64,000 nucleotides of DNA, taken from Paenibacillus sp. NAIST15-1. GTDB lineage: Bacteria; Bacillota; Bacilli; Paenibacillales; Paenibacillaceae. Numbering within the stretch: position 1 is the first letter of the stretch; every line of letters begins with the position of its first letter. The DNA lies in assembly GCF_001894745.1 (NCBI RefSeq), contig NZ_BBYF01000003.1, positions 558,001-622,000 on the forward strand. The letters are read 5' to 3'. Made by a program: the position numbers and the translations under genes. This document shows positions 15,244 through 38,960 of the stretch, in pieces. The notes under the pieces are model-generated. The model was not told the DNA's origin. It saw only the letters and a program-made list of their open reading frames with translations, and did no database searches.

Positions 15244-15933
<690 letters not shown>

Positions 15934-16041
15934 CTACAGCGCAGAAGTAGAAGCTCTTCGCGATCCATCATAGCTCTCGGCATCTGACGGACATGCTTCT
16001 TCCTTCCGCTCTTCACGTGTTCTTTCTCGTAAACGAGCGTT

Positions 16042-16074
16042 ACCTTGCCAGTCTCACGGGACTGATTTAAAGGT
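16042..16074 (-). promoter_or_regulatory. PyrR-binding anti-antiterminator in pyr leader RNA
   Basis: The minus strand holds AGTCCCGTGAGACT (16063-16050), which fits the known PyrR binding loop ARUCCNGNGAGGYU at 13 of 14 positions. It sits in a two-part stem: lower ACCTT/AAGGT, internal bulge, upper CAGTC/GACTG, and a CCGTGA loop. This is the published shape of PyrR binding loops. Only one such element is found in the operon. Confidence 0.88.
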
Positions 16075-16091
16075 CTTATTTGATTAACTGG

Positions 16092-34722: not shown

Positions 34723-36006
34723 TTATCCGTTGGCAATATCAAGCTTAGGCACAGACGTGATTCGTTCAATCTTCGCGCCGAGCCTAGTAAACATATGCTC
34801 GATACTATCGTATCCGCGATCAATGTGATGAACATTCTCTACGACGGTACGACCGCTTGCGGCAAGCCCAGCAATAACGAGCGCCGCTCCTGCGCGCAGG
34901 TCGGTTGCCTCGACTGTCGAACCATACAATTCTGGCACACCTTTGATAAATGCATTACTCAGATCAACCCGAATATCTGCTCCCATTCTGGCGAGTTCCT
35001 CGACATGCCGGAAACGGCCTTCAAATACCGTCTCCTTCATCACACTTACCCCATCAGCAAGTGACAGTAACACCATCAGCTGAGATTGCAAATCAGTCGG
35101 GAACGCAGGATATGGCGACGTTACAATTCGCTCTACAGCCTTCGCTCTACCAAAGCTAGTTACGTTGATTATACCATCACTCGTTGCGATCTGAACACCG
35201 GCGCGGCGCAGGATATGGATTAGCGAAGTCAAGTGGCTCGCATGCGCATTGGTCAGCGTTACTGCTCCTCGGGTTGCCGCAGCGGCTATCATGAGCGTAC
35301 CCGCTACAATGCGATCAGGCATCACTTCATATTGGCTTCCTCTTAGCTTCGTAACGCCTTCAACGACAATTGTGTCTGTACCGGCTCCTGACACCTGTGC
35401 ACCCATGCTGTTCAGAAAATGCTGCAAGTCAACAATTTCCGGTTCTCTTGCTGCATTCGTTATGACACTCGTTCCTTCTGCGAGAACGGCTGCCATCATC
35501 ACATTCTCCGTAGCACCAACACTTGGAAAATCAAGATGAATATCTGTCCCAATGAGCCGTTCTGCACGGCATGTGATTCGATTGCCGCAATGCTCCAGCT
35601 CTGCGCCTAATGACTGCAGTCCACGCAGATGCAGATCAATCTTCCTCTCACCGATTGCACAGCCACCTGGCTGATAGATGTGAACCTCCTTAAACCTTGC
35701 AAGCAGCGGCCCCATCAAGAAAATAGAAGAACGCATCTGGCGCATCAAATCCTCCGGCACATGCGTGGAATGGGCGCCTGACGTATCAATGGAGACCGTC
35801 CCTCCATCTTGGATCGTCCTGCAGCCCAGACTTCGCATAATGTGCTGCATGACCTCGATGTCTAGCAATTGCGGAACGTTCTCTAGCCTAACGATGCCAT
35901 CGGTTAGAATCGAGGCTGCCATAATTGGTAAAGCGGCATTTTTAGCTCCTTGGATACGAATCGTACCAGATAGAGGCCTTCCACCCTCAATCACCAATTT
36001 GTCCAA
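34723..36006 (-). CDS. murA: UDP-N-acetylglucosamine 1-carboxyvinyltransferase
   Basis: A 427-residue enzyme for the first committed step of peptidoglycan synthesis, transfer of enolpyruvate to UDP-GlcNAc. The catalytic cysteine is in QPGGCAIGERKIDLHLRG (Cys116), and the fosfomycin-sensitive form is expected. KNAALPIMAASIL is the N-terminal substrate loop. Start TTG 36006 has GGAGGT 6 bases upstream; the longer frame to 36033 would overlap the murB remnant. Firmicutes often carry two murA genes; which one this is cannot be told here. It sits between the murB remnant and divIB. Confidence 0.96.
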   Translation of the reverse strand: MDKLVIEGGRPLSGTIRIQGAKNAALPIMAASILTDGIVRLENVPQLLDIEVMQHIMRSLGCRTIQDGGTVSIDTSGAHSTHVPEDLMRQMRSSIFLMGPLLARFKEVHIYQPGGCAIGERKIDLHLRGLQSLGAELEHCGNRITCRAERLIGTDIHLDFPSVGATENVMMAAVLAEGTSVITNAAREPEIVDLQHFLNSMGAQVSGAGTDTIVVEGVTKLRGSQYEVMPDRIVAGTLMIAAAATRGAVTLTNAHASHLTSLIHILRRAGVQIATSDGIINVTSFGRAKAVERIVTSPYPAFPTDLQSQLMVLLSLADGVSVMKETVFEGRFRHVEELARMGADIRVDLSNAFIKGVPELYGSTVEATDLRAGAALVIAGLAASGRTVVENVHHIDRGYDSIEHMFTRLGAKIERITSVPKLDIANG

Positions 36007-36022
36007 TGTGTCACCTCCGAGA

Positions 36023-36735
36023 TTACCGCTCACCCACTACTCGATTTTCGGCACCAACGCTGCATGATTGTATCTCTTGTATCATCTGTTGAATGCACGC
36101 TATAAGGGCAAGCACGTCTGACGCTGTTGCTTGACCGGTGATAACAATGAAATTGGCATCCCCTATGCTGAAGAGCTTAGCGTCGCATTTCCGACAAACC
36201 TGTTAAGCAGCGCAGAGGGCCGTATGCGAAAAATGCACAGGTTCCGTCATTTCACTCACCAATTTCCCTATCCCAGTTCAATCTCAGCAGTATCAATTAT
36301 TCGTGACACATCCGACCCCTTCGCTCCTGCACTCATGGATACGGCGCTTCAGACCGTTCATGAATGCGCTCAGCATATTCAAGCCTCGACAGCTCTACAC
36401 TGTGTGTGGATAGCTCCATCTTCATGAATGGAGGGTCGCTCCAGCATACCAATTTGCCTTCCTCGCTTCCGTGGCAAAGCCACGCCACACCATCTCACAA
36501 GGATTGTGAGCTGCCGCCAGCTATACTTAGGTTCATATTCACAAGCCGTGCAATCTTGAAGAGTGTACGACGAGGCAGCGGTCTGGGGGAATCTGTCACG
36601 ATGTATAGAGTATATTATGTTCGGGCGAAACGTTGTGTGACAGGAGCCCATTCCCGATTCTTCTACTATATGACGTCCTGACAATTTCAGGACAATAGCT
36701 GCATCAAACCCCTTAAGCTCGTAAATTAGGCACAA
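36023..36735 (-). pseudogene. murB: Decayed murB (UDP-N-acetylenolpyruvoylglucosamine reductase)
   Basis: No open gene exists in the ~715 bases between murG and murA, but broken MurB-like pieces occur in order on the minus strand. QLTILVRWC lies near 36510-36484; SRLEYAE, from the segment that normally reads GLSGLEFAGGIPGS, is near 36384-36364; AGAKGSDVSRIIDTAE (36330-36283) is the MNAGAxGSD region. The C-terminal NFIVITGQATASDVLAL is followed by NRVVGER and TAA at 36025-36023. Several stops and frame changes separate them, and the FAD-binding part is not recognisable. The C-terminal match is strong; the N-terminal boundary is uncertain. The cell must have MurB encoded elsewhere. Confidence 0.78.
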
Positions 36736-36763
36736 AAAAATCGGGCAAGCTTACTTGCCCGAT
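36734..36763 (-). terminator. Intrinsic terminator overlapping the murG 3' end
   Basis: On the minus strand ATCGGGCAAG, TAAG, CTTGCCCGAT then TTTTTT. The left arm encodes the last residues of MurG and the loop holds its stop codon. It should stop transcription from the mur operon before the murB remnant and murA. Confidence 0.88.
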
Positions 36764-37857
36764 AATCGTTGTAATTCAGCTACTACTCTTGCAGCTGCGT
36801 CTGGCTGTCCAAAAGACTTGGCAGCGTCAGACATGTTTTTTCGCTTCGCTTCATCAGTCATCAACGACTTGATATGGCCGAACAAAGCTTCTGTCGACAG
36901 TTCTTTCTCGGTAATCATAATGGCTGCTCCCTCATCCTGCAAGGAGCGCGCATTCGCTTCCTGGTGATTGTTCGTCACATTTGGCGACGGGATCAAGATG
37001 GAAGGAATTCCGAGAGCAGTCATCTCTGCAAGTGAAGAAGCTCCCGCTCGACTGACAGCGAGCGTTGTTGCCGCAAGCACTTCAGGCATGTTGCTGATGT
37101 AAGGCAGGACATGCAGATGATTGCGAACTGCATCACTCGTCTGCAGCACAGCCTTCCGTGTATTTTCATAATAGTTCTGCCCCGTCACATACACGAAGTG
37201 TACATCCGGCAATTGCTTCAGTAATGGCGCCATGCCGATCATCGCTTCGTTCACTGCCTTTGCACCTCGGCTACCGCCTACGATAAGGACAATTCGGCTG
37301 TCGCTCGGCAATCCGAGAGTCGCGAAGCCGCGTGCTTTCTCCGCTTCCATCACTGCCGTTGCTCGCGGATTCCCACAATAGACTACGTTTTTTGCTTTCT
37401 TGAAATACGGAGCAGATTGCTCGAAGCTAACCGCAACTGTACTCGTATATCGGCTTAGAAACGTATTCGTCAAGCCTGGAATCACATTCTGTTCATGAAT
37501 GACGGTCGGAATTCCAAGCTTCGCTGCAGCGTATACAACGGGACCGCACACATATCCACCCGTTCCAACGACTACATCAGGCTTGAATTCTCTCAGCATT
37601 TCTTTGGCCTTGCCTACACCGCGAATGAAACGCATGATCGTCTTGAAGTTTTCCATTGAAAGCTTGCGGCGAAATCCTGTAATTTCAATCGCCCGAAAAT
37701 CCAAGCCCTCTTCAGGAACGAGACGGCTCTCCAATCCCTTCTCTGTTCCGATATATAAAAAAGCGCTGCCGGGATACTGCTTCTCGCATTCCCTTGCAAT
37801 GGCGACTGCCGGGTAGATATGTCCACCTGTCCCGCCACCGCTGAGCACGACGCGCAT
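36751..37857 (-). CDS. murG: Lipid II synthase MurG (GlcNAc transferase)
   Basis: A 368-residue GT28 glycosyltransferase that adds GlcNAc to lipid I at the inner membrane face. N-terminal glycine loop RVVLSGGGTGGHIYPAVAIA, a second G loop VVGTGGYVCGPVVYAA, and the C-terminal UDP-site region SRAGASSLAEMTALGIPSIL. ATG 37857 has GAGGTG upstream that also contains the spoVE stop. The end is joined to a terminator hairpin. Confidence 0.97.
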   Translation of the reverse strand: MRVVLSGGGTGGHIYPAVAIARECEKQYPGSAFLYIGTEKGLESRLVPEEGLDFRAIEITGFRRKLSMENFKTIMRFIRGVGKAKEMLREFKPDVVVGTGGYVCGPVVYAAAKLGIPTVIHEQNVIPGLTNTFLSRYTSTVAVSFEQSAPYFKKAKNVVYCGNPRATAVMEAEKARGFATLGLPSDSRIVLIVGGSRGAKAVNEAMIGMAPLLKQLPDVHFVYVTGQNYYENTRKAVLQTSDAVRNHLHVLPYISNMPEVLAATTLAVSRAGASSLAEMTALGIPSILIPSPNVTNNHQEANARSLQDEGAAIMITEKELSTEALFGHIKSLMTDEAKRKNMSDAAKSFGQPDAAARVVAELQRLSGK

Positions 37858-37862
37858 GACTT

Positions 37863-38960
37863 TCACCTCGCATAACGTGATATATTCAGTAAAATTCCTA
37901 GTGCAGTCAGCATTAAGGTCAGCGACGAGCCACCATAACTAATTAATGGCAGCGTTATTCCCGTAACTGGCATGAGTCCAATTACGACACCAATATTGAT
38001 GATCACTTGAACTGCCACAATTCCAACAATGCCTGCCGCCAGCAGGCTGCCGAATTTATCAGGCGCCGTCAGAGCAGTTCGCATACCTCGCCACACTAAG
38101 ATAAGAAATAAAATCAAAACCGTAACTGCACCTAAAAATCCTAGTTCCTCTGCTAAAATCGAGAAGATAAAATCAGTTTGCGGCTCAGGCACATAGCTGT
38201 ATTTCTGGCGGCTTGCACCGAGGCCAAGTCCCATAAGACCGCCTGGCCCTATAGCAAATAACGACTGAATCGATTGGTATCCAGCCCCCAGCGGATCCTG
38301 CCAAGGATCAAGAAATGCGGTAATCCGCAGAAGCCGATAGGGCGCAGCGAGCACGAGTCCAACGAACCCAGCTACCCCAACTGCAGCAAGCGACAGCAAA
38401 TGCTTCATTTGAGCTCCCGCCACAAAAATAACAAGCAGCACCGCACCAACCATGACCGTTCCTGTACCGAGATCCGGCTGCAGCATGATAAGTCCGAACG
38501 CCGTTCCCATAATCGCAAGCGGCGGCAGCAACCCCTTTGTAAAGCTCGTAATGCTCGTTTGCTCCTCGGAGAGCATTTTGGCCATGAACAGAATCATCCC
38601 GAGCTTCATAAACTCGGACGGCTGTATGCCAAACGAACCGATGCCTAGCCAGCTTCGCGCCCCACCCCGAACATTGCCGATTCCCGGAATGAGAACAACA
38701 ATCAGGAGCACGAAGCAAATAAGAAGTCCAATCTTCGCATATCGCTTCCATACGCGATAGTCCGTATTCATCGTAACGAACATCGCAGCAATCCCCAGCA
38801 GAGCAAACAGCAATTGACGCTTAACGAAGTAGAACGAATCTCCATATTCCCGGAAGGCGAGAACAGCACCGGCGCTGTATACCATAATCATACCGATCGA
38901 TAGCAGGGACAGTACCGAGACGATTAGCCACAAATCGGGCGCAGTGCGTGCTTTGACCAT
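37863..38960 (-). CDS. spoVE: SEDS-family lipid II polymerase SpoVE/FtsW
   Basis: A 365-residue polytopic membrane protein of the FtsW/RodA/SpoVE family, peptidoglycan glycosyltransferases that pair with class B PBPs. About ten membrane segments are visible, plus conserved FGIQPSEFMKLGMILFMAKM and PVTGITLPLISYGGSSL. Its position between murD and murG is that of spoVE in Bacillus, and spoVD lies in the same operon; a vegetative FtsW role cannot be excluded. ATG 38960 has GAGGTG 6 bases upstream. Confidence 0.92.
   Translation of the reverse strand: MVKARTAPDLWLIVSVLSLLSIGMIMVYSAGAVLAFREYGDSFYFVKRQLLFALLGIAAMFVTMNTDYRVWKRYAKIGLLICFVLLIVVLIPGIGNVRGGARSWLGIGSFGIQPSEFMKLGMILFMAKMLSEEQTSITSFTKGLLPPLAIMGTAFGLIMLQPDLGTGTVMVGAVLLVIFVAGAQMKHLLSLAAVGVAGFVGLVLAAPYRLLRITAFLDPWQDPLGAGYQSIQSLFAIGPGGLMGLGLGASRQKYSYVPEPQTDFIFSILAEELGFLGAVTVLILFLILVWRGMRTALTAPDKFGSLLAAGIVGIVAVQVIINIGVVIGLMPVTGITLPLISYGGSSLTLMLTALGILLNISRYAR

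Follow-up and report, generated by a model that had tools for sequence, protein, structure and literature searches.

The murB gene between murG and murA of Paenibacillus sp. NAIST15-1 is dead; two islands within its remains are constrained, survive in dead copies of the gene in related genomes and are joined by a predicted consensus RNA fold. We propose that these islands belong to a cis-acting RNA that is embedded in murB, covers the start site of murA and has outlived the gene, a reading to which we assign a probability of about 60%. From the modelled fold we infer that its helix P1 would form in the cell and regulate murA. The features are listed in Table 1, in coordinates of the window, by which we mean the whole stretch of 64,000 nucleotides that was analysed.

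Table 1. Features of the murG-murA region and of the proposed RNA element
Feature	Position	Strand	Basis
murA, intact, proposed target	34723..36006	-	ORF reading, comparison with relatives
murG, intact	36751..37866	-	ORF reading, comparison with relatives
Cluster murB remains still recognisable as MurB, frames broken	36026..36357	-	tblastn; MurB_C HMM at 36047-36163
Conserved promoter-like block, upstream of the murB remnant (TGTCACAC...GTGACAG)	36593..36642	-	conserved in most loci; putative function
murA Shine-Dalgarno GGAGGTG	36012..36018	-	sequence reading
Full extent of the RNA element in the match to covariance model R1	36004..36312	-	93.6 bits, E 1.1e-24
Block 1, first conserved island (5' strands of P1 and P2)	36272..36316	-	alignments; synonymous island; L003 comparison
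Block 2, second conserved island (P2 3' strand, P3 5' strand)	36106..36150	-	alignments; L003 comparison
Decayed inter-island linker (loop of P2); coding, about 315 nt in intact relatives	36142..36271	-	linker lengths
P1 5' strand (ATGTGTCAC)	36303..36311	-	alignments, unguided consensus fold, window folds
P1 3' strand: second half of murA Shine-Dalgarno, spacer, first base of TTG start (GTGACACAT)	36006..36014	-	
P3 3' strand (GGGTGAGC), partner block 2 GCTTGCCC	36028..36035	-	alignments, partner permutation, folds

The cluster murB is a pseudogene

No reading frame of murB length is present between murG and murA in the window, which confirms what a sequence-only reading of this DNA had noted. 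Its claim that murB decayed in place was likewise borne out. When seven intact cluster MurB proteins were searched against the whole window by tblastn, they matched 36026-36157 (best E 5.4e-8) and, in a different frame, 36274-36357 (best E 7.9e-5), a hit that contains an in-frame stop; the remaining matches at E<=1 were three, with E 0.21, 0.40 and 0.92. The Pfam model MurB_C gave a match below its cut-off at C3:594047-594163, corresponding to 36047-36163 of the window (22.3 bits, E 6.8e-4). All five MurB-like peptides that the same reading had picked out are present in the sequence (36487-36513, 36369-36389, 36283-36330, 36104-36154 and 36026-36046), and three of them lie inside tblastn hits. 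SRLEYAE is located about 12 bases upstream of one hit and fits the MurB order by eye, while QLTILVRWC falls outside every tblastn alignment and is unproven as a piece of MurB.

Comparison with a related strain, P. alvei DSM 29 (L003), whose MurG is 95% identical to that of this genome, revealed a dead copy at the same place, in a gap of 882 bp. Since this is an independent assembly, an assembly error is very unlikely. We conclude that the cluster murB is a real pseudogene.

A perfect intrinsic-terminator-like hairpin overlaps the murG stop codon (36740..36763, minus strand), and similar hairpins are found there in the P. alvei group. The promoter-like block further along the same strand has inverted arms, TGTCAC/GTGACA.

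An intact murB elsewhere and repeated loss from the cluster

The genome-wide search for another murB found one intact copy, coding for 305 aa (L001), on a different contig. Every genome searched (overlapping sets of 18, 40 and 39, with L046 left out), including all 28 with a broken cluster copy, gave a MurB_C match above the cut-off. The predicted takeover by a second murB is therefore well supported on sequence grounds, and the enzyme job of the cluster gene appears to have passed to the murB elsewhere. In a quick tree (SH-aLRT only), the copies elsewhere form clades apart from the cluster-murB clade, so the second murB is not a recent duplicate; five further copies, placed by sequence alone, group with the cluster clade. 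We also observed a third, divergent and longer type of murB of about 337-370 aa (L173-L193 except L176 and L177, L100 and L104-L109), which is the only intact murB found in the genomes of L067, L074, L077 and L079.

Among 80 Paenibacillaceae murG loci, 51 have a complete murB, one is cut by a contig end (L056) and 28 are without an intact copy; with the window, this makes 29 loci that lack an intact murB between murG and murA. A tree built on two proteins, MurG and MurA, places intact relatives between the broken groups and implies that murB was lost on about ten separate occasions: the window with L003; L008; L010/11/12/29; L013; L014/20/24/30; L035; L040; L064; L067/74/77/79; and a clade of ten fully excised loci (L047, 49, 50, 55, 59, 60, 61, 65, 76 and 80). 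The core of block 2 is kept in 19 of the 29 broken loci, which amounts to nine of the about ten losses, and block 1 is kept in all 19 except L040, where it is degraded. Both islands are gone from the excised clade, murA being kept, which shows that the RNA element can be lost. The promoter-like block and the pre-murA region are retained in this clade, and in the folds of L059, L061, L076 and L080 the leader start ATCACCC can pair with GGGTGA instead, as a hairpin.

Two islands of murB are constrained in living and dead copies

In an alignment of the gap between murG and murA, blocks 1 and 2 are almost the same in living and dead copies. Intact cluster murB genes (51 genes, 25 disjoint pairs) contain two islands of low synonymous change, one at codons ~165-187 and one running from codon ~275 to the last (L004 numbering); observed/expected ratios there are 0.28-0.68 vs about 0.9-1.5 elsewhere. 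This is a depletion of about 1.5- to 3.6-fold, and the lowest value along the gene was reached by none of 500 column permutations. The pieces of the window that are still readable as MurB are these two synonymous-poor islands. Paralogous murB genes elsewhere (42 sequences, 20 pairs) are without the islands of the cluster copy; they show an N-terminal dip (lowest 0.51, 1/500) and slight C-terminal dips (0.75-0.79). Where murB is followed by murA in distant genomes (34 distinct loci, 14 pairs), block 2 is depleted of synonymous change (0.43, 0/1000) and block 1 less so (0.68-0.91).

The dead copies of the window and L003 can be compared directly. At fourfold sites of murG and murA they differ at 180 of 395 positions (0.456), so their split is not recent. 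Block 2 has 1 substitution in 45 positions (0.022) and block 1 has 3 in 44 (0.068, plus one unaligned base). Low counts were also found in the stretch before the Shine-Dalgarno (1/35) and in the promoter-like block (4/50). The P3 loop has 10 substitutions in 64 positions, the linker 25 in 118 (0.212, with 194 nt unaligned) and the region upstream of block 1 has 75 in 262 (0.286). These rates do not fit neutral drift over the whole remnant. The cluster copy had been described as drifting, which is wrong for part of it: blocks 1 and 2 are strongly constrained though the protein is dead.

Across the dead copies, the islands are 64-97% identical to the nearest intact relative (only 24% for block 1 of L040), against 2-63% for the rest of the dead murB outside the islands and the P3 loop; these identities leave out the misaligned L074, L077 and L079, the recent loss L013 and the ten excised loci. 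Global pairwise alignment had misplaced block 2 of L074, L077 and L079, which direct comparison places. The linker measures 314-315 nt in intact genes and 1, 2, 3, 13, 18, 22, 33, 47, 76, 127, 308 or 320 nt in dead copies, and the blocks nearly touch (1-33 nt) in L014, L020, L024, L030, L035, L067, L074 and L077. These lengths fall into all three frames, so the conservation cannot be put down to a reading frame shared by the two blocks.

A predicted fold joins the islands to the murA ribosome-binding site

Complementarity links the two islands with one another and with the ribosome-binding site of murA. When RNAalifold was run with no structure given on 13 of the 19 island-bearing dead copies (all but the window, L003, L013, L008, L040 and L079), the consensus was a closed multi-branch fold of 23 pairs joining both islands; it contained the five innermost P1 pairs, P2 for the most part and six P3 pairs. 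The covariation term in this fold was small (-0.29 of -10.84). Folded singly, 4 of 11 dead copies (L064, L067, L077 and L079) formed P1 in the minimum-energy fold, as GATGTGTCAC with GTGATACAT, together with P2 and P3.

P1 of the window is fully Watson-Crick. The minimum-energy fold of the window contains 9/9 pairs of P1, 11/12 of P2b-d, 0/4 of P2a and 0/8 of P3, and the centroid fold contains 8/8 pairs of P3 in addition. The fold energy of the window is ordinary (z = -0.16, 43 of 100 shuffles as good) and is better in L067 (z = -2.71, 1/200) and L077 (z = -2.09, 4/200). In several of the loci L013-L041 and L045, relatives of P. amylolyticus/polymyxa, several dead copies included, the P3 loop holds TATCATCTC, which is complementary to GAGGTGATA of the murA ribosome-binding site and could form a competing pairing.

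Covariation gives moderate support

Pairing was scored on an alignment of 67 rows (51 intact, 16 dead). Not included in it are L008 and L079, which fell short of the automatic thresholds, L040 (removed by hand, block 1 being degraded), L056 (its contig ends inside murB) and the ten loci lacking both islands. The proportion of paired cells was 97% for P1, 79% for P2a, 98% for P2b, 96% for P2c, 82% for P2d and 83% for P3, vs 2-73% when the partner strand was slid. With the structure given, 87.6% of cells pair in the 13 dead copies vs 33-51% when slid, and covariation was 0.111 vs 0.075 in shuffled alignments (0/500), two of five shuffle measures being unremarkable (148/500 and 170/500). In an alignment of eight copies, one slid version covaried more than the proposed structure (0.105 vs 0.098).

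Dead copies contain individual changes that keep pairs. P2a has UA to AU between the L010 group and L003; in P3, L067 has CTCAAGA/ACTTGAG (6/7 pairs) and L003 has CTTGCCC/GGGTAAG (7/7). Permuting the partners among distinct strand pairs only (128 rows, some genomes occurring twice) gave 0/5000 for P2a/b, 26/5000 for P3 and a weak 216/5000 for P2c/d. The value for P1 over distant taxa was not significant (533/5000). P1 is nearly invariant, with a middle pair that is often G-A or G-G outside the family, so covariation hardly tests it. An unsupervised tree-aware scan found no single significant pair (best E about 0.5 and 1.2), and third-position covariation as good arises from composition alone about 3% of the time (in 1028 and 1186 of 39380 pairs). 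For these two reasons, the case rests on the constraint, the survival in dead copies and the unguided fold. Overall, the support from covariation is moderate and is weakest for P1, the helix that covers the murA start.

A covariance model recovers the element

A covariance model (R1) was trained on 8 of the 19 island-bearing dead copies, all from lineages other than that of the window. In the whole genome, the window was its only match below E 0.01, the next best having an E of 5.95. Applied to 46 loci, R1 matched every one of the 33 block-bearing loci at E below 1e-7 (its own training rows account for 7). L008, L040 and L079, absent from the 67-row alignment, are matched by R1. The 8 excised loci that were scanned all gave weak matches (E 4e-5 to 0.07), and the five paralogous murB loci gave none. 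R1 further matched 200 of 246 genomes of the order and 64 of 250 genomes of the class (20 of these 64 from the same family), counts that are not all evidence for the RNA because the distant score comes partly from murB coding similarity.

Alternative explanations

Both P1 and gene order would also suit pure translational coupling, by which the mid-murB strand covers the murA start, ribosomes on murB uncover it so that MurB and MurA are balanced, and the dead copies are left by inertia. P1 does join mid-murB to the murA start, and murA directly follows murB in 32 of 32 distant loci, although these are not independent, since the pre-murA segment is part of the model that picked them. A ribosome cannot, however, cross the whole frame in dead copies, yet the islands persist through nine of about ten losses. 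Some of the changes in dead copies keep pairs, and coupling alone leaves invariant unpaired positions unexplained. We consider it unlikely. Still less probable is an element that acts as DNA, for instance as an internal promoter of murA or as a site to which a protein binds. The blocks are short and near-identical and P1 covaries little, which would suit such an element, but there is complementarity between the two and with the murA start, and in the unguided consensus fold they are connected. An internal promoter was rejected, as a promoter scan of 35900-36900 gave sites upstream only, at 36614-36684.

Plain decay after a recent loss, with the islands as the slowest-changing parts of MurB, can draw on the conserved MurB motifs that both islands encode and on how much else remains in L013, a recent loss, and in the L003 linker (63%). 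We rejected it as very improbable because synonymous sites are constrained in intact genes, the islands outlast the rest of the dead gene and the 46% fourfold divergence from L003 speaks against a recent split. Maintenance of the islands by a short peptide or overlapping reading frame is hardly credible: some dead copies keep open frames of 41-77 aa over block 2, but the linker lengths break any frame common to both blocks and stops occur inside some block 2 matches, for which reasons a shared short frame was rejected as well.

Proposed mechanism of the RNA element

If the cis-acting RNA folds as predicted, the mid-murB strand GAUGUGUCAC would pair with the Shine-Dalgarno/start region of murA, GUGAYACAU, to form P1. 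In P2, block 1 would pair with block 2, leaving the middle of the murB reading frame in the loop, and in P3 CUCACCC of block 2 would pair with GGGUGAG just before the Shine-Dalgarno. Closed P1 would cover the murA start and keep translation low, and opening of P1 would allow more translation. Ribosomes on murB could open P1 in living operons, by coupling. Since dead copies, in which murB cannot be translated, retain the element, a different opener is likely there and might be a metabolite, a protein or temperature. A terminator-like hairpin ends murG and a promoter-like block comes after it, so that the murA mRNA probably has the murB remnant as its leader. MurA belongs to the EPSP-synthase family, of which this genome carries four genes, and regulation of one of them is thus plausible.

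A bolder version, possible but rather doubtful, is that the element represents an unrecognised class of riboswitch for a cell-wall precursor in Paenibacillaceae and neighbouring Bacilli, controlling murA with mid-murB in a stem loop and kept in dead copies by selection. Such a class would have escaped searches restricted to intergenic regions because it overlaps a gene.

Comparison with known systems

Riboswitches and leader RNAs that sequester the Shine-Dalgarno are structured RNAs in front of a biosynthetic gene that pair with its ribosome-binding site. The proposed element resembles them in its predicted structure before a pathway gene, its pairing with the ribosome-binding site and its conserved unpaired stretches. 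It differs in lying inside the upstream coding sequence with ~315 nt of murB in a loop, in persisting after the death of the gene and in having no Rfam match. In the RNA phage MS2, long-distance pairing between the coat and replicase genes likewise covers the start of a gene with a strand inside the gene upstream; the murB-murA element is cellular, has a larger predicted fold with P2 and P3, and is kept without upstream translation. The locus is also comparable to pseudogenes replaced by a paralogue, in that the cluster copy is broken while the genome retains an intact murB from a different clade, but here strong purifying selection acts on two pieces of the pseudogene.

MurA carries out the first committed step of peptidoglycan synthesis, and the element provides a concrete candidate for its control. 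A protein gene has died repeatedly while an apparent regulatory RNA inside it stayed under selection, and this repeated death is a natural experiment that exposes an overlapping function. It suggests a search plan based on synonymous-poor islands together with pseudogene pieces that refuse to decay.

A search of Rfam gave no credible match for the element; at loose thresholds, five loci yielded three matches, all of them far short of the cut-offs and to families of plant microRNA and snoRNA. To judge from their titles and the openings of their abstracts, the papers found in an open-licence library, PMC2864571 and PMC5491136 among them, describe no RNA at murB-murA. One passage of PMC2864571 deals with clustering within intergenic regions, and the 'murA' match shown from that paper is an author name. 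Elsewhere in the window, a PyrR-binding RNA (Rfam RF00515) is located at 15863-16077 on the minus strand.
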